A DNA stretch of 64,000 nucleotides from positions 1-64,000 of the forward strand of contig NZ_CADIJW010000002.1 of the NCBI RefSeq assembly GCF_902859745.1, in the 5' to 3' direction. The number at the start of each line of letters is the position of its first letter. The stretch's first letter is position 1. This DNA comes from Achromobacter dolens. Its GTDB lineage: Bacteria; Pseudomonadota; Gammaproteobacteria; Burkholderiales; Burkholderiaceae_B. The notes under the pieces were generated by a model. It worked only from the letters and a program-made list of their open reading frames with translations. It did no database searches and was not told the DNA's origin. Both the position numbers and the translations under genes were made by a program. Below are positions 1-19,553 of this stretch, piece by piece.

Positions 1-61
1 CTAGCGCGCTCTTGCGCTTGGCCGTCCAGCGTTTGATGTCGTCTTCCATCTTCATGCTCAT
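1..61 (-). CDS. IS transposase OrfA, N-terminal 20 codons only (DUF1153-like)
   Basis: The minus strand from 61 translates to a short start ending MEDDIKRWTAKRKSAL. This matches the opening of the small DUF1153/HTH OrfA found in IS3-like elements, where the motif IKRW(T)A(K/R)RK begins the helix-turn-helix. Three in-frame ATG codons are present (61, 55, 49); I chose the first. The rest of the gene lies to the left of the window. In this family OrfA supplies DNA binding and OrfB the DDE integrase core. Family assignment is from memory of the N-terminal signature and is therefore moderate. Confidence 0.6.
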   Translation of the reverse strand, partial: MSMKMEDDIKRWTAKRKSAL

Positions 62-111
62 CGTCAATTCCCTCGATTATGACGTGAGCAGGTTTTCACT
101 GGGTCATTACA
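1..111 (-). mobile_element. Terminal part of an IS element (IS3-like), left part outside window
   Basis: The window opens inside an insertion sequence read on the minus strand. A transposase OrfA start lies at 61, and upstream of it (towards 111) the minus strand begins TGTAATGACCCAGTGAAAAC, which has the 5'-TG end typical of IS3-family elements. I place the element boundary at 111 because a truncated plus-strand reading frame becomes coherent immediately after it. The exact terminus and target duplication cannot be confirmed because the other end of the element is outside the window. Confidence 0.5.
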
Positions 112-696: not shown

Positions 697-759
697 GGGG
701 TTCCTTGGTTGTCGGAGAAGTGTACGACATAGACGCGAACGAAGATGCCATCTCACCCT

Positions 760-804
760 ATAAAAAGCCTCCTAACGATCGATAAAAAAGCCTCCTAACG
801 ATCG
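760..804. repeat. Tandem 22/23-bp direct repeat at edge of AT-rich cassette
   Basis: Two adjacent copies of ATAAAAAGCCTCCTAACGAT plus CG occupy 760-781 and 782-804; the second has one additional A in the A-run. The repeat lies exactly between the GC-rich lipoprotein gene and the downstream end of the AT-rich three-gene cassette. It could be an integration scar or attachment-site duplication. Read on the minus strand, each copy also contains GGAGGC followed by a T-run, so a role in transcription termination is an alternative. Confidence 0.7.
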
Positions 805-831
805 TCATTAATTTTCACAAAATCTCAGTTT

Positions 832-1476
832 TTATTTGGTTTTCTTGCGCGAGGCCTTATCAATTCGAATACACACTGCGGCACTCGCGTATGCACTTCC
901 CTTATCCATTGCTATACTACTCAAAATTATTCTTTGACCTTGCTTTTCTACCAATTTCTGACACCTACCACCTATCTCATCCAGCAAACGATTGAGCCTA
1001 TCTTCGGCACCAACCTGAACATTTTTTCGAACGAATAAGGCAAGGAATCCGGACTGAAGGCAATTTCTCTCTCCACCTCTTGCCAATACCGCAGAGAGAC
1101 GTTTTACGTCACGCTCAATTCTATGAAATGATCCCACCGGATGCTTCACCTCAACAAGAAAACGTGGTTTCTCGTTTTTTTTATGGACAACCATATCAAA
1201 CCGACCATTACCGCGGATATCCTTCGGCACAACGCCAGTAGAAATCGCCCCGCTATTGATTAGCGTCTCTTTTACTGATTTCTCAAGATCAATTAGAACA
1301 CCCAATCTCCCAACCTGAACGGCTATAGACGTCGTCAAAAAATACTCAGGAGCCGCATCCAGAGAAAGTCCTGAAATTTTAGGGTAGGCGCCAGCTGCTT
1401 TTTTTATACCTGCCACTATGGCGTTTTGGACAACTAAAACTGACACCGGACCACCAGAATAGTCAGTAAATTTCAC
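832..1476 (-). CDS. PD-(D/E)xK nuclease-like protein of an AT-rich cassette
   Basis: The 214-residue product has the spacing of a PD-(D/E)xK nuclease core: an acidic residue in an early helix (E44 region, APEYF), then RFDMVVH with D94, then the strand FLVEVKH with E109 and K111, followed by a basic helix IERDVKRLSAVL. Similar cores occur in restriction and defence nucleases. The start is a GTG at 1476, preceded by a five-codon mini-frame. It is transcribed in the same direction as the flavoprotein gene 96 bp upstream. Base composition is far more AT-rich than the surrounding chromosome, indicating horizontal acquisition. Nuclease activity is inferred from the motif alone; a non-catalytic DNA-binding or sensor role is possible. 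Confidence 0.6.
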   Translation of the reverse strand: MKFTDYSGGPVSVLVVQNAIVAGIKKAAGAYPKISGLSLDAAPEYFLTTSIAVQVGRLGVLIDLEKSVKETLINSGAISTGVVPKDIRGNGRFDMVVHKKNEKPRFLVEVKHPVGSFHRIERDVKRLSAVLARGGERNCLQSGFLALFVRKNVQVGAEDRLNRLLDEIGGRCQKLVEKQGQRIILSSIAMDKGSAYASAAVCIRIDKASRKKTK

Positions 1477-1490
1477 GCCAATAATCCCAT
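1473..1490 (-). promoter_or_regulatory. Five-codon leader frame overlapping the GTG start of the nuclease-like gene
   Basis: On the minus strand a strong AGGAG (1503-1499) stands eight bases before an ATG at 1490. That frame encodes only MGLLA and stops at a TGA (1475-1473) which overlaps the GTG start of the downstream gene as GTGA. The strong ribosome site therefore fits the mini-frame, not the GTG, which suggests translational coupling or reinitiation. It could instead be chance in an A/T-rich leader. Confidence 0.4.
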
Positions 1491-1572
1491 TATTTTTTTC
1501 TCCTACAGATATATCATCTAGAAATAATCAAAAAAAAATAAATCATATATCAAACACAAAAATACTCAAGGC

Positions 1573-2991
1573 CTACACCACGGGATCAAGATTCATCGGA
1601 ATTCCTTGAAAAGCAAGGCGTCGCAACAGATCCTCCGACCCTGCCGTTCCCACTTGCTCCTGCTTGCTCACGCTAGAAAACCCGATCCGGCGTAACTCAA
1701 CATCAGGCGCCTCATTACCGAAGCTTCTGATCATTTCAGAGGTCTTTCTAAACAATGAGGCACGCCCAGAACCCTTAACGGACAATCGAATTAGTAGCCC
1801 TACCAACCAACGATTAAGGCCATACACCTTCTTGCTGAATTTCAATTCATCCACAAGCTCAATTTCAATTTCGACTTTTCGCACAACCCTTTCATACCAA
1901 GCCTTGAGAGCTGCTGGCGCCAAATTATTCAATTCTTCCATTTCTCGCCAATATATTTGATCCAATTCCTGATATACACAACCGTCCTCATAACCCCACA
2001 TCGACGCGCGAACGGCTTGATCCTCTGCGGATTGAATGCGCCCACACATCTGCGCCCAATGCGCCCCATGATTTGCATGTCGTAGAATTTCTCGCAGCTC
2101 ATTCACGCAACCACCAAGATCATGCCAATTCGGGTCGAGACAGAATCTGAGAGCCTCCTGCAACCCTCCATCTCCTCCCCCAAAAATTCGAATCTTCCCT
2201 TTACCATTGAGCGCCTTATTAATGTCACTTTCCAACTCGTTATAGGAAAAAAAATCTCTCGCAGCGAGAGTTTGCTCATTACTTTTACCCAAGCCGAATC
2301 CGATAGCAAATATGACTATTTGCGCATTTAAATTTCTTACACCCCCCTTACCATAAACATCGACCCGCACTCTTCCGCTCGCTTCATTCACGGCGACATC
2401 ATCCATGCTATGAAGGCTATGTTCATATATTATTTCAATATTATCTCTATACTTCTCTTTATATTTATCCAGCTGCAACAGGAAAGATTTTCGCATTTCC
2501 GCTCCCGTTTTGGGAACATCCGGAAAACGCAGCACCGCAGCCTTCTTTTTAAGATTTGAGATAGTTTCCTTATTCCGAAGAGGCTCCATATAGGGAAAGG
2601 AGTGCCCACCACTATGTTCATGGGGCCAATCGTATACTGTCGCACTAAATAGTCTATCGCTACCCAATCCTAAAAGGGAAAAACACGCAGACGTCGACTC
2701 TACAAGTTGCACTGTTAGCCCTAGTTCACACGCCATGAGAGCGGCAGATACACCACCGACACCTCCCCCAACAACAATTATATTTGGACTCCCGTTCGCC
2801 AGGCTCCTGCCTGGGTTAACAAGACCCGCTTTCGCAGCAGCCAGTACTAACGTACGCCCGCGTATCAATTGATCTTTCATACTTATAAATTGCAAGTCCC
2901 GATTCAGATCGAATTGCAAGGCTTGGACTTTAAAAGCCAATATTGCAAGGCCGTCCTTAGTTCCTGGCCTTAGAGAATTAACGGCATCCAT
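1573..2991 (-). CDS. Two-Rossmann FAD/NAD(P)-binding oxidoreductase-like protein (cassette core)
   Basis: This 472-residue protein carries a dinucleotide-binding motif IIVVGGGVGGVSAAL (GGGVGG at 75-80, acidic end of strand 2 at E98), a second glycine-rich motif IRIFGGGDGGLQEAL (271-276) and an intervening IVIFAIGFG strand. This is the layout of flavoprotein reductases that bind FAD and then NAD(P)H. The first 65 residues are an extension of unknown role, and the C-terminal 180 residues are helical with no family I recognise. Its ATG shares one base with the stop of the upstream gene (TAATG), so translation is coupled. The AT-rich composition matches its neighbours. Substrate is unknown; the motifs suggest NAD(P) or redox sensing, or nucleotide consumption, rather than a housekeeping enzyme. 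Confidence 0.65.
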   Translation of the reverse strand: MDAVNSLRPGTKDGLAILAFKVQALQFDLNRDLQFISMKDQLIRGRTLVLAAAKAGLVNPGRSLANGSPNIIVVGGGVGGVSAALMACELGLTVQLVESTSACFSLLGLGSDRLFSATVYDWPHEHSGGHSFPYMEPLRNKETISNLKKKAAVLRFPDVPKTGAEMRKSFLLQLDKYKEKYRDNIEIIYEHSLHSMDDVAVNEASGRVRVDVYGKGGVRNLNAQIVIFAIGFGLGKSNEQTLAARDFFSYNELESDINKALNGKGKIRIFGGGDGGLQEALRFCLDPNWHDLGGCVNELREILRHANHGAHWAQMCGRIQSAEDQAVRASMWGYEDGCVYQELDQIYWREMEELNNLAPAALKAWYERVVRKVEIEIELVDELKFSKKVYGLNRWLVGLLIRLSVKGSGRASLFRKTSEMIRSFGNEAPDVELRRIGFSSVSKQEQVGTAGSEDLLRRLAFQGIPMNLDPVV

Positions 2992-3413
2992 TAAAAACTA
3001 ACCTCCTGCAACAGCCCCACATCCGCCGTAGCAAGGTCTCGCTGAATTAAAAAAACCGAACTCCTTGCCAGAGACTTCACATCTTCAAATTGTTTCATAA
3101 TGTCGATCAGATTCTGGGGCTCGACTATAGAAACCGCTGAACGCCCACTATATTCGACCGGGAGATTTTCAATTGAATCGGAATATTTGTTCGGCCTGTA
3201 ATAATAGACTCCGGGCCTAACTCGCTCCAGCATCCGCGCTCTTACTAATGCACGGAAGCCGCTACTGATTTCGGATAAAATCTTCGAAAGCGGATTACCC
3301 GCATACAAAAAATCGGGAGCTAGATCATCTCTAACTTTCTTAACCTCAACGATATCACCATCAGAATAGTTATCATTTAAGTATCTATTGAGAGCTGTTT
3401 TTATGTCTTCCAT
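2991..3413 (-). CDS. Small winged-helix-like protein, first gene of AT-rich cassette
   Basis: The 140-residue product starts at an ATG with GAGG a few bases upstream. Residues about 5-75 look like a winged helix: two helices, then FRALVRARMLERVRPGVYYY, in which the GVYYY strand resembles a wing. The C-terminal half is mixed and ends in a helix before the one-base overlap with the flavoprotein gene. It probably either regulates the cassette or is the specificity or adaptor subunit of the flavoprotein. The 274 bp upstream (3414-3687) contain the presumed cassette promoter and also the leader of the divergent gene; I see no further gene there. No family is recognised with certainty. Confidence 0.55.
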   Translation of the reverse strand: MEDIKTALNRYLNDNYSDGDIVEVKKVRDDLAPDFLYAGNPLSKILSEISSGFRALVRARMLERVRPGVYYYRPNKYSDSIENLPVEYSGRSAVSIVEPQNLIDIMKQFEDVKSLARSSVFLIQRDLATADVGLLQEVSF

Positions 3414-3687
3414 ACATCCTCACAAGAAGTTCAGAGCCGACTTCTAACTCAAGCCTCCATCCATTGGTCTTGGTACTTATCAGCATTACGTCGTAAATCT
3501 CTCCGCTATCTAGATAACGGATCCCAGACGGTAGCCACCTGACCTGTTCAGACCTCAGACCCGAAGGATCATATTACATTTCGAAATGGAAATTTATCAT
3601 CCTCCCGCTCCATCGTGAATTTGCTTCAATAATCAAGCGTTATTCCGACCCCTACAGGTCGCTCCGCATTTAACGACAGGTAGATCC

Positions 3688-6806: not shown

Positions 6807-8447
6807 CTAGACCAGGATCTTTGCCTCGATACCCGCATGCTCTCTAAGCAGATACAACAACCCGCCTCCGTCAATCAATTCAATGGGCTTGTCCTGAGAA
6901 AACTTGTAGGCGTCGACTCCATAGCCGCTTGTGCATACGAGGATACCTTTGGTCGCGCCTTCGTTCATCATCGTGCCGAAAAGGTCTCGTACCGCTGCCA
7001 CGCCAACTGTGTCGCGATACCGTTTAGCCTGGATCACGACCTTGCCCCCCAGGATCGGGCGCGTATCAAAGGCAACGGCATCGACGCCTCCATCCCGAGA
7101 CGCCCGGGTGAGCTTGGTATCCAGTCCCATGCTGCTGAACAGGTTCGACACCAGCACCTCAAATTCACCAGGGGTCAGGTCCAGCAGATTAGGCCTCGAC
7201 TCCAGATCGCTGAGCACGTCTCCTTGCTCGATGAAACGTTTGTCGACCATATCGAACTCAACGATCGGCTTGATAGCCTGCAGTTCGTCGGGACGGCTCG
7301 ACACGTGTGCCCCCAGATTGCGCAAGCAGGCGATCATGTCGACACGATCCAGAAGCAATTCTTGAAACTCGGATTTCTCTGCCCTCACGGAGACTACTGG
7401 AACACGGACCTCCCGCCCGTTGGATGGATCTATGGTATCCACGATGCCATTGAAGGTCACAAGCGCGAGCGCATCGGCTTGATCCGCTTCGAACAATTCA
7501 TGCAGGGTTCGCAGCGTTATCGCTGCTATGACGCCTTGGTATAGGCGTTTGATATCCGCGGGCTTTCGCGCTTTGGTGTCAATCTGGTCTCGGGTCTTGA
7601 CGTAGCGATGCTCCAACTCCGTAGGCACGACGGATATATGGGGTAGTTCATACTCCACAACCAACGTCTTGTTCTCTTCGAGATAGGTCATTCGGAATTT
7701 CTGCGGAAACCCTTCCTCGGGGTATTCCGAGCGAACCAAGACCATCTCGTTGTACGCAATGACGGCATCACCCTCGCGCGCCTGATAGGCCGCTTGAAAC
7801 TCGTCGACCTCAGCATTGCGCCGAGCCATCTCGGCATCGTATGCAGATTTTTTTTGGAGATACTGGTCACGCAGCGTGGCAACCTGTGCCCGCTTATCCT
7901 CTTCCCATAACTCGAACGATTCCAACCGCTGTTGGTTCTGTATCCTGGCCTTCTCCTTGGCCAGTTGGTGCCTTTTTCCGGCCCCAGGGATCAGCCGCTT
8001 CAAACCCGAAGGAGCTGGAACCGTGATCAACGGAGGCGACTCTGCAGGCCGGAGTTCTGCGGCGATCTCAAAAGGTGCGAATGGCTCGAAATGCCGCAGG
8101 CTATCGAAGTCAATGACGTCATCACGCCTGAGTGTGTGCGGAAGGATATCTTCCAACGCCTCGACCTGTTCGCTCAATTCGGCATTGAGGTCGTCTGTTT
8201 CAGCTTGCCGATCAAGAAGGTACTGCGCCTTCAGCGCCCTTTCGGCTTCGCGGTCTTCCCGGGCCTGCTGCGCGGCCAGTCTTCGCTCATCGCGATGACG
8301 CTGCGCCGTATCCCTGCGTTCATCGCGCTCGACTTGTCTGGCATACGCAAGCTGCATCCGGGCAGCGCGATTACGCTCTCGCTCGGACGCTGCGGCCGCA
8401 CGCGCCGCTGCTCTGATAAATGCTCCGAAACCGCTACGGCGTGCCAT
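6807..8447 (-). CDS. Coiled-coil restriction endonuclease, Mrr-type catalytic domain
   Basis: The 546-residue protein has an Arg/Glu-rich coiled coil in its first 110 residues (RQVERDERRDTAQRH and similar), a middle region of unknown fold, and a C-terminal Mrr_cat domain. The last 110 residues contain LTPGEFEVLVSNLF, the catalytic RDGGVDAVAF aspartate and VVIQAKRY, the QxK form of the PD-(D/E)xK motif typical of Mrr. Mrr enzymes cleave modified foreign DNA; here the coiled coil may drive oligomerisation. I chose ATG 8447 (MARRSGFGAF) over the GTG at 8495 because the 16 extra residues are not basic or helical like the rest and this start begins the conserved helix. It is next to a NYN nuclease gene on the same strand. 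Confidence 0.8.
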   Translation of the reverse strand: MARRSGFGAFIRAAARAAAASERERNRAARMQLAYARQVERDERRDTAQRHRDERRLAAQQAREDREAERALKAQYLLDRQAETDDLNAELSEQVEALEDILPHTLRRDDVIDFDSLRHFEPFAPFEIAAELRPAESPPLITVPAPSGLKRLIPGAGKRHQLAKEKARIQNQQRLESFELWEEDKRAQVATLRDQYLQKKSAYDAEMARRNAEVDEFQAAYQAREGDAVIAYNEMVLVRSEYPEEGFPQKFRMTYLEENKTLVVEYELPHISVVPTELEHRYVKTRDQIDTKARKPADIKRLYQGVIAAITLRTLHELFEADQADALALVTFNGIVDTIDPSNGREVRVPVVSVRAEKSEFQELLLDRVDMIACLRNLGAHVSSRPDELQAIKPIVEFDMVDKRFIEQGDVLSDLESRPNLLDLTPGEFEVLVSNLFSSMGLDTKLTRASRDGGVDAVAFDTRPILGGKVVIQAKRYRDTVGVAAVRDLFGTMMNEGATKGILVCTSGYGVDAYKFSQDKPIELIDGGGLLYLLREHAGIEAKILV

Positions 8448-8610
8448 GCTGCCCCCAAAATCTACTAAGCCAAGGATTGAATGGTTCAGGTCCACCTCAC
8501 CTCGGACGGATATATCGGCCCGAGGTTAATGTATGCAAATATTACCTGAACTCAAAATACCCCTGATCCTAGAACAGCACGAAGCCATCGCGACACCCGA
8601 CTTCTCTGCT

Positions 8611-9321
8611 TTACTTTCGTTTCAGCCGAATGTGCATATTCGTGATGACGGATGGATCCCCGACTTCTTTTATCTCGATATAAGGTTGGGCACGCACGAG
8701 CCCGCCCAGCTTGGCAAAACCATAATTGCGGGAATCAAAAGACGCGTTATTTTTGACGATATACGACCCGACCGCTCCCAAAGGTGCCCATCCGTTGTCA
8801 CGGGCAGTGTTTTCAATGGCCCTCGCCAGCAACACCTTCAACTCCCCGCTCTCAGCAGCTTCGGCATCGGCTTTCGGCAGGTCATGCAACACCTCGAAGA
8901 AGATGAACTTGTCGCAGGCCGCGATGAAGGCCTCCGGCGTCTTTCTTTCGCCCAACCCATAAACCACCTTACCCGCCTCTCGCAGCCGGGTCGCGAGCCG
9001 CGTGAAGTCACCGTCGGAGGACACCAATACGAACCCGTCCACGTTACCCGCGTAAAGCAGGTCCATGGCGTCAATGATGAATGCGGAATCGGTGGAGTTC
9101 TTCCCGGAGGTATAAGCGAATTGCTGAATGGGCTGGACTGCGTGCCGATGTAGCTGAGCTTTCCAGCCGGCCAGATTTGAAGTGGTCCAGTCTCCATATG
9201 CGCGCTTCACCGTCGCAGTCCCGTATTTAGAGACCTCGCCCAGCAGATCTTGAATCACCTTCGCCGAGGCATTGTCCGCATCGACGAGCACCGCCAATCT
9301 GCTCACATCACCATTGGCCAT
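8611..9321 (-). CDS. NYN-domain ribonuclease-like protein with OST-HTH/LOTUS domain
   Basis: The 236-residue protein has an N-terminal NYN (PIN-like) domain: LAVLVDADNASA near residue 14, STDSAFIIDAMDLLY and FVLVSSDGDFTRLA carry the metal-binding aspartates. The C-terminal GELKVLLARAIENTARDNGW segment and the following helix-turn-helix match an OST-HTH/LOTUS RNA-binding domain. Proteins of this arrangement (LabA/DUF88 group) are thought to be RNA-processing nucleases. The ATG has a strong AGGAG. It precedes the Mrr-type gene in transcription order with a 163-bp gap that has no obvious terminator. It might be stand-alone; a joint role with the Mrr enzyme is inference. Confidence 0.8.
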   Translation of the reverse strand: MANGDVSRLAVLVDADNASAKVIQDLLGEVSKYGTATVKRAYGDWTTSNLAGWKAQLHRHAVQPIQQFAYTSGKNSTDSAFIIDAMDLLYAGNVDGFVLVSSDGDFTRLATRLREAGKVVYGLGERKTPEAFIAACDKFIFFEVLHDLPKADAEAAESGELKVLLARAIENTARDNGWAPLGAVGSYIVKNNASFDSRNYGFAKLGGLVRAQPYIEIKEVGDPSVITNMHIRLKRK

Positions 9322-18094: not shown

Positions 18095-18314
18095 GAGACA
18101 CGGCGGGAAATGCCGTCAAAGCGGGGATCGAGGGGGGATTATAGTTATCGGCGAGTTCTCATCGGCGTAACACGGGAAATCAAGGGGCATAACGTGGGCA
18201 ACCGGCTTCCCCATTCCTCCCTCGACCACAAGGAGTGTTTCGTGCCGAACCGGGAACGACATAAAGACAGCGATTTATGATCCTGCATTGGAAACAGAGG
18301 CGAGCAGCCGAGAT

Positions 18315-18713
18315 ATGAAACCACTCACCGTTGTATCAGTAGAAAGATACGCACCAGACGACGATGCCGCCTCGGTCACGCTTCGCAGCGACCAAGGGGA
18401 AGTCACCGTTTTCTGCTGGCCCTGCTCCGTCAAGGCCGGTGACGTCGTCATGAATCGCCTGTCTGCAATGGATGGTGAAGTCGGCGGCGCCTACGGAGTT
18501 GACTGGCCTCAGGGTGAGAAAGACGCCGCGTCGGCGGAACAACTGGAGCGTACCGGACATTACGCCTATCGAGGCCGCGGGCGCGTAGCCAAGGCATCTG
18601 AAGGCTTGGTTGAAACGATGGGATTCTTGATCGAATTCGGAGAAACACCCGAGACCGGACACGTCGAATTTGATATTGCCCGGCTCGATTGCGGGTGCGA
18701 TACCCTCGATTGA
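18315..18713 (+). CDS. Conserved hypothetical protein, lower-GC patch
   Basis: The product is 132 residues from ATG 18315 (MKPLTVVSVE); an upstream in-frame ATG at 18288 would add nine residues but has a poorer context. The sequence has alternating strands (LTVVSVERYA, VTVFCWPCSV, FLIEFGE, VEFDIARLD), cysteines in FCWPC and DCGCD, and no signal peptide. It is probably a small beta-rich cytoplasmic protein. GC content is lower than in the backbone, like the next gene, which suggests recent acquisition. No function is recognised. It ends 18 bp before the convergent gene at 18732. Confidence 0.6.
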   Translation: MKPLTVVSVERYAPDDDAASVTLRSDQGEVTVFCWPCSVKAGDVVMNRLSAMDGEVGGAYGVDWPQGEKDAASAEQLERTGHYAYRGRGRVAKASEGLVETMGFLIEFGETPETGHVEFDIARLDCGCDTLD

Positions 18714-18731
18714 CGCACCCTAACTCTCTCG

Positions 18732-19553
18732 CTATTCGTACAGGACTTCCCGTCGTTTCAATTCATGCTGTATTTGACGATACTGCAGCAGTAGGGATTC
18801 GGTACTCACGCGAGTCAGATCTGCGTCACCCATCGACGACCCAAGCCCTTCAAGAATCGAGCCATAATTTTTGAACAGGAGTTGATCCAAAAATGCAGGG
18901 GTGATGCCAAGCGGTTTGCATACATCCTGCGCGAGAAGAGTCTCGACGGCGGCATATGAGGTTGCAGGTACCTTTGTTGGAAGTTCAGGAACGATTCTGT
19001 TCACCACTCCCATGACCCGGCTATCCAATGCAATGCGATCAGTGGCCAGACCAAAGCCGGATGTAAGAAAGTCACGCGCTCCCTTGTTCTTGACATAGGC
19101 CAGAGACTTCGCAACATATTGCCAGCGTTCCTCTGACGTTTTCAGCGCCACCACGTAGCGTATGAAACCGCTCGGCCCGCCTTTGTACGCCTTAAGAAAG
19201 GCGAAGTTCTTTATCAGGGCAAGGACCTTTGGCGAAAGCTCCGGATTAACGTCGGACACATAGCGCGCACCTATTTCACGCAACACTTCGCCAAGCACCA
19301 TTGCCACCTGGGCTTCGGGCATGGCACATAGACGTTCGTAGTTCAATTTTTCCCGGATGGCGGCCTCGGAAAGCCGCTTGGCGGGATCGGATTTTCCCAC
19401 CACGACAACCTGGCTTACGACGCGGATCCAAATATCGGTATCGGACATCGTTTTCCAATGATCCGCTGGCGGCAGTCGGATATCGTGCCCAAAGCGTTCG
19501 CATATCCATCGGAACTTGCCGACTTGTTCTTCCGTAAGCGTAGGGAGCTGCAT
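18732..19553 (-). CDS. Helix-hairpin-helix DNA glycosylase-like protein
   Basis: The 273-residue protein is all-helical. It contains SDTDIWIRVVSQVVVVGKS, a long helical middle and then KNKGARDFLTSGFGLATDR followed by IALDSRVMGVVNRIV. This order (a K-x-GAR helix-hairpin-helix, then an aspartate about 15 residues on) resembles the HhH-GPD core of base-excision glycosylases such as Ogg/AGOG. The likely lysine is in KNKGARDFL and the likely catalytic aspartate in ALDSR. The ATG at 19553 opens on MQLPTLTEEQ. GC content is clearly below the flanking genes. The family call is a motif-level inference; a non-enzymatic DNA-binding relative is possible. Confidence 0.45.
   Translation of the reverse strand: MQLPTLTEEQVGKFRWICERFGHDIRLPPADHWKTMSDTDIWIRVVSQVVVVGKSDPAKRLSEAAIREKLNYERLCAMPEAQVAMVLGEVLREIGARYVSDVNPELSPKVLALIKNFAFLKAYKGGPSGFIRYVVALKTSEERWQYVAKSLAYVKNKGARDFLTSGFGLATDRIALDSRVMGVVNRIVPELPTKVPATSYAAVETLLAQDVCKPLGITPAFLDQLLFKNYGSILEGLGSSMGDADLTRVSTESLLLQYRQIQHELKRREVLYE

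Follow-up and report, generated by a model that had tools for sequence, protein, structure and literature searches.

A gene pair of Achromobacter dolens, coding for a flavoprotein that resembles the effector half of LmuA and a small upstream partner, is probably an undescribed immune module

In the Lamassu (ABC-3C) systems, a double-Rossmann dehydrogenase domain is among the N-terminal effector domains of LmuA and LmuB is common to all systems, according to PMC10586767. For toxin-antitoxin modules, PMC10440598 describes antitoxins whose neutralising segment is linear and separate from a head that is regarded as the sensor. At the level of the chromosome, PMC10250203 describes core defence hotspots in Pseudomonas aeruginosa, where fixed flanks enclose cargo that differs by strain and transposases are found mostly at the borders. 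Here we analysed a window of 64,000 nucleotides from Achromobacter dolens (the first 64 kb of the 324-kb contig NZ_CADIJW010000002.1; genome of 6.29 Mb), and within it three minus-strand genes, g1 (2991..3413), g2 (1573..2991) and g3 (832..1476). We consider the g1+g2 pair to be probably an undescribed immune module, because g2 is related to an anti-phage effector and because the chromosomal slot that holds the pair carries defence-type genes in some relatives. The more specific reading, a two-gene defence module made of a sensor/antitoxin and a redox effector, is the one that we favour, at a little better than an even chance.

The g1 gene is an open reading frame (ORF) of 140 amino acids (aa), a putative sensor or antitoxin recognised as a partner gene from the ORF itself and from a relative, 37% identical, that stands beside g2 in the nearest related locus (L007, Paracidovorax anthurii). 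The g2 product, a putative effector of 472 aa, is a two-Rossmann protein for flavin adenine dinucleotide (FAD) and nicotinamide adenine dinucleotide, with or without phosphate (NAD(P)), as judged from Pfam, PADLOC and a 28-row alignment. The two genes overlap by one base (TAATG), AGGAGG lies immediately ahead of the g2 start, and g3 starts 96 bp beyond the g2 end. A first-pass annotation of this DNA, made from the letters alone, had described the same layout and had called the block far more AT-rich than the rest, which is also what we measured: the guanine-plus-cytosine (GC) content is 0.445 in 832-3413 against 0.671 for the remaining window, the minimum among 1229 sliding windows of equal size (step 50). 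Our scripted gene calls were rough, several high-GC neighbours being antisense artefacts, and they missed these three genes.

Relatives of g2 were found in 29 other genomes or records. A tblastn search gave a single copy, distant in sequence and carried by an Undibacterium plasmid (L004), a profile search one further genome (G425), a scan of genome contigs with a three-row g2 alignment 27 loci, including L022, the G425 locus, and a later search one more, G1209; a first contig scan with the window g2 alone had been unproductive. Counts over 27 loci refer to L004 plus 26 of the 27 contig-scan loci, and those over 27 aligned rows to the window plus the same 26; G1209 is in neither. L012 has a broken frame; neither the g2 alignments nor the tree include it, and it contributes its upstream partner ORF alone. 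L006, L034 and L022 are one and the same locus.

Matches to Pfam were obtained for FAD_oxidored (1.5e-7) and Pyr_redox_2 (4.7e-6). Both Pfam and NCBIfam assign g2 to general FAD oxidoreductases only, NCBIfam naming no specific family, and among the 60 of 327 PDB-chain matches listed only the first Rossmann stretch is covered. The two dinucleotide sites on which the first-pass label of a two-Rossmann flavoprotein was based, GGGVGG (residues 75-80; 2752..2769, minus) and GGGDGG (residues 271-276; 2164..2181, minus), are present, and the label is supported: G75, G77 and G80 of the first and G271, G273, D274 and G275 of the second, followed by Q278 and R282, are invariant in 27/27 rows. Equally invariant are D40, Q41 and R44 of a K/R-D-Q-x-x-R motif that precedes the first Rossmann site (residues 39-44; 2860..2877, minus), Y120 of a Y-D-W-P motif (residues 120-123; 2623..2634, minus; W122 and P123 in at least 90% of rows), R113, P133, G231 in a G-F turn (residues 231-232), F247, Y390, N393, R435 and G437. 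The order of FAD site, G-F turn and NAD(P) site is one that we take to be flavin-monooxygenase (FMO)-like. The motif FxGxxxHxxx(Y/F/W), the usual one of FMOs, is present in 0/28 g2 rows.

The window g2 also matches the LmuA profile of PADLOC (8.4e-12), and so do all 27 of the aligned rows (PDLC03858; best E 9.9e-33) and the Undibacterium copy. In 10 members inspected individually, the best-matching stretch falls between profile positions 2 and 393 of 827; the match of L010 is colinear over residues 55-403. The part matched is the N-terminal, effector half of LmuA; the effector type behind PDLC03858 is not named in the PADLOC table. The C-terminal half, which docks on LmuB/LmuC, has no counterpart in g2, whose length is 448-550 aa over 28 rows and whose best-matching stretch, in those 10 members, ends by position 393 of 827. 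The g2 protein may be a stand-alone form of the LmuA effector domain, and the flavoprotein is a likelier effector than the nuclease-like g3 product, to which the first-pass annotation had given that role.

LmuB is absent from the window's slot, because between the flanks common with congeners there are only g1, g2, g3 and short ORFs. A crude scan for an SMC-like motif pair (1/586 ORFs of at least 200 aa has both motifs, at any spacing) found none in the 27 loci and the window. In view of this, the locus was not filed as Lamassu. A LmuA profile search of 250 genomes gave 0 matches and also missed the window's own g2, so that this negative carries no information. The name Lamassu-Fmo is in use; no search supplied it, and the accessible text of PMC10286901, the single paper retrieved that contains both words, does not explain it.

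The distribution of g2 is wide and sparse. The phyla include Pseudomonadota, Myxococcota, Acidobacteriota and Planctomycetota, and identity to the window copy is 54% in L007 and 18-25% outside it. In the window's genus g2 occurs in 1/43 genomes, the window's own. Counts for the class (at least 1/369, its own), the order (at least 2/399, its own and G425), the family of L007 (at least 1/299, L007's own) and the genus of L015 (at least 3/144, the genomes of L015 and L018, and G1209) are lower bounds because few candidates per genome were scored, up to 4, 3, 5 and 11, respectively. In an unrooted g2 tree, the window and L007 (100/100) join 11 rows, a group of 13 supported at 100/98, and the other 15 rows stand apart. 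Viral contigs, scanned four times with g2 alignments or g3, contained no relatives. Searches of phage records with g3 and a g2 relative as queries gave no match, nor did plasmid searches in which g1, g3 and the g2 copy from L006 were the queries.

The unit that recurs is the g1+g2 pair and not the trio. In 24/27 loci an ORF of 110 aa or more, on the strand of g2, ends between -25 and +50 bp relative to the g2 start; the same holds for 36/137 control genes (other genes of the same loci). A pair of the g1+g2 type is present in all 13 rows of the window's group. The arrangement is that of type II toxin-antitoxin modules, with genes adjacent, overlapping or near (24 of the 27 loci; 13/13 rows of the group). 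Gaps between partner and g2 run from -11 to +2 bp in the 11 sister-group loci (those whose partners carry the tail described below); L007 has a gap of -4 bp and the window one of -1 bp. L007 has the same overlapping order, with no g3.

Partners measure 86-286 residues in the loci read. In the sister group, 11/11 end in a tail of about 30 residues, E-[VIML]-[LV]-x-H-[P, S or A]-x-L-F. The 11 tails had been chosen by eye ahead of a leave-one-out test with a hidden Markov model (HMM), in which the true partner ranked first in 11/11 loci (E 5e-16 to 5e-9), the next match being 0.055 or worse. Four of these partners have large heads (230-279 aa proteins in L004, L008, L021 and L030) and seven others are small (141-165 aa); when the large-head and small-head profiles were compared, 30 tail columns aligned and nothing else (E 3e-9). 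These results show that, in the sister group and not in the window, one tail is carried by at least two unrelated heads. There may be more than two head types, because between some of the small partners the alignment is confined to the tail region, as with L015/L020 against L027 (25 columns).

For the window itself, g1 and its L007 relative have in common a block near their C-terminal ends, LARSSxFLxQxDLA, and we regard the g1 C-terminal tail (residues 112-136, VKSLARSSVFLIQRDLA...; 3006..3080, minus), which includes this block, well conserved with L007, as a candidate docking segment; the shared block is in line with such a role and is no proof of it. Two other candidates were rejected. A family-wide tail motif, written as a regular expression, occurred in 4/11 sister-group partners, 2/16 other partners, 0/2 for the window and L007, and 6/313 background genes. 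A likeness by eye of the g1 tail to the sister-group tail was discarded as support because the tail HMM missed the window g1 and a profile comparison was negative. The first-pass annotation had called g1 winged-helix-like, a label that found no profile behind it: matches of g1 to Pfam, PADLOC, NCBIfam, PHROGs and PDB chains were all at chance level and none was to a helix-turn-helix family. In Pfam, none of 12 partner proteins (window g1, P0001 and ten others) reaches the cut-off.

This arrangement brings up a selfish toxin-antitoxin pair, in which an FMO-like toxin and a tail-type antitoxin would be kept through addiction and not for immunity. Gene order, overlap and a small partner with differing heads and a conserved end all fit it, and PanA antitoxins have linear neutralising segments, as described in PMC10440598. 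However, the slot has defence-type company in two of three congeners and the effector profile that g2 matches is that of Lamassu, and we consider addiction alone a rather improbable account of the pair.

The slot that holds the pair (variable cargo slot, 726..3685) has flanks in common with three congeners (G378, G379 and G388), in which 2.9-3.4 kb of other DNA lie in between. In this genus, 10/43 genomes have the right flank, among them that of the window, and the left flank is also present in G378, G379 and G388 (93, 92 and 76% identity); G393 and five other congeners examined match the right flank only. The congener cargo has a GC content of 0.42-0.47. In G378 (L069 8498-11092, minus, 41% GC) it encodes a SIR2_2 protein of 864 aa that also contains TPR-like repeats and a stretch resembling nSTAND; this may be a defence gene of the Avs-like kind. 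The cargo is, in G379, an AIPR protein (Pfam 5e-28, PADLOC AbiU 2e-35) and a 304-aa protein; in G388 (L067 5885-8496), a DUF6119 protein and a 287-aa partner. The PADLOC scan of this cargo was run on four of five proteins without their first codon, and a later scan on whole ORFs. Cargo of a defence type is thus recognised, by its sequence matches, in two of the three congeners, G378 and G379, in a comparison that comprises four strains and a slot of about 3 kb.

The first-pass annotation had also placed an insertion sequence (IS) end at the border of the cassette. An IS end does occupy about bases 1..111, at the contig end, where plasmid DNA matches within about bases 1-117, with an annotated transposase in several records; however, it does not abut the cassette, because bases 111-725 are chromosome common to congeners.

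Several observations weigh against a defence module. The nSTAND match of the G378 protein scores 33.7 bits, with a Pfam cut-off of 34; PADLOC returned nothing for both G388 proteins or the G379 304-aa protein and a weak GajB match for G378; and DUF6119 is given no role in the searched libraries. Among 1015 ORFs, the sister-group tail HMM finds neither the window g1 nor that of L007, no common tail was detected in the partners of the other 15 rows, and the overlapping 226-aa ORF upstream of g2 in G1209 does not have the sister-group tail. Finally, many g2 copies stand single among genes that by eye look ordinary. This last point, together with the general FAD oxidoreductase matches in Pfam and NCBIfam, suits a metabolic pair, in which g2 would be a monooxygenase or oxidase of the FMO-like kind. 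In that case g1 would serve as its carrier, regulator or substrate, with the g1 tail reaching into the active site, and the pair would have no part in immunity. That explanation has to contend with a patchy occurrence (1/43 in the genus), with the low identity to the window g2 outside L007, with the LmuA similarity of g2, and with a slot that in congeners is used by SIR2-type and AbiU/AIPR cargo; we judge it unlikely, though a credible competitor. In favour of defence we also counted the Undibacterium g2 copy, which adjoins Avs1c- and Avs1b-like pieces.

The third gene, g3, has a GTG start and encodes a 214-aa protein. Its first-pass label as PD-(D/E)xK-like holds up: D94...E109-x-K111 is present, the E109-x-K111 segment (1144..1152, minus) being invariant in 4/4 rows together with E44, R92 and D94, so that both the conserved D...(D/E)xK and the putative helix glutamate (E44) are found. 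Of 299 further genomes searched in the order, 3 contain a relative, with identities of 26-35% over the matched stretch and 24-32% in the alignment. A Pfam HSDR_N_2 match is below the cut-off in the window and in L039, and no PDB sequence matched g3 up to E 5. At two of the loci with a g3 relative, the neighbours resemble, by eye, WYL-type regulators.

The first-pass annotation had proposed that all three genes form one module, that is, a g1 regulator, a g2 sensor and a g3 nuclease effector. The genes are on one strand, g3 lies 96 bp from g2, and their GC content is equally low. However, with a limit of E 1 a g3 HMM matched 0/3838 ORFs of the 27 loci that carry g2, and no g3 relative was met within the DNA fetched for these (0/27 scanned). 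Conversely, the three g3 loci gave no tblastn match at 1e-3 to g1, g2 or any of the partners, and the best E of the g2 HMM there, 0.016, is at chance level; L007 has g1+g2 only. The trio therefore recurs at none of the places examined, a three-gene unit was rejected, g3 and g1/g2 never being together outside the window in those loci, and that the three act as one system is highly improbable. Because no g3 was found in g2 loci and no g1 or g2 in g3 loci, g3 is probably a separate, nuclease-like gene, a passenger in the same slot and outside the g1+g2 module. Of the defence-like module as first proposed, the AT-richness, the patchy occurrence and the defence-like cargo remain, and the three-gene unit gives way to the pair.

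Taking the pair as a defence module, we propose that g2, an FMO-like flavoprotein presumed to bind FAD and NAD(P)H, would act as the effector. Its partner g1, translated directly before it, would silence it through a grip of the C-terminal tail, and the variable N-terminal head of g1 would detect infection or cell damage. Once the head is triggered, g2 would be released and harm the cell, whether by burning NAD(P)H, by making reactive oxygen or by oxidising a cell target, and as a consequence of this harm the phage would fail. The fuller version, where swappable sensor heads and a common locking tail act on one FMO-like family that kills by oxidation or NAD(P)H draining, we put forward tentatively, as possible and well short of an even chance. 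To our knowledge, no defence system shows such chemistry.

Some neighbouring features were noted in passing. A 19-base direct repeat (window 763-804; starts 763 and 786) marks the left slot edge and is absent from the other fetched loci outside its own genome. A second variable stretch (window 6807-9321) encodes an Mrr-type restriction protein (PADLOC mREase_IV 4.6e-82) and then an NYN-LOTUS protein; both genes are in the window and G378, and absent there in G379 and G388. At window 18288-19553, two ORFs (141 and 273 aa) flanked by GC-rich genes lie in a dip of the GC content to 0.56-0.57. A DUF4917 protein (L073 3738-4727) is found just left of the right flank in a congener that is more distant, and behind the Undibacterium plasmid g2 copy (L004 9532-10150) there are an Avs1c gene and a remnant that matches the end of Avs1b only.

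Parts of this picture are already known: Lamassu has the effector domain, and toxin-antitoxin modules have the two-gene layout. As the first-pass annotation had stated for its trio, no named system of this composition, and none with the g1+g2 pair, is found in PADLOC (2023) or NCBIfam (2026), and Pfam has none with the pair. The literature searched, outside which most subscription papers lie, contains no description of the pair or of its effector chemistry, and in the accessible part of PMC7159879, on nucleoside triphosphate (NTP)-dependent conflict systems, a term search gave no mention of FAD, flavo- or oxidoreductase. In the pair, a redox effector domain of the Lamassu type occurs apart from the SMC machine of that system and is coupled with a small partner. 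If our reading is true, the effector chemistry would become open to study in a two-gene system, and the common tail on different heads would offer a direct test of modular sensing. The small slot is, moreover, a place to seek further defence genes in this genus.

Compared with the described systems, the locus has points of likeness and of difference in each case. Like the core defence hotspots, it shows fixed chromosomal flanks with strain-specific cargo; here, however, the slot is small (about 3 kb), it was compared in four strains, and defence-type cargo was recognised in two of three congeners. With the PanAT/NetFlax type II modules it shares a small adjacent overlapping gene, a modular partner and a short conserved terminal segment, as PMC10440598 describes them; in those modules Panacea is one antitoxin domain with many toxins, whereas here one enzyme family has several partner heads. 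With Lamassu of the double-Rossmann LmuA type, the likeness is that of g2 to the N-terminal effector half of LmuA, and the difference is that this locus has neither LmuB nor the C-terminal half of LmuA and has a small upstream partner instead.

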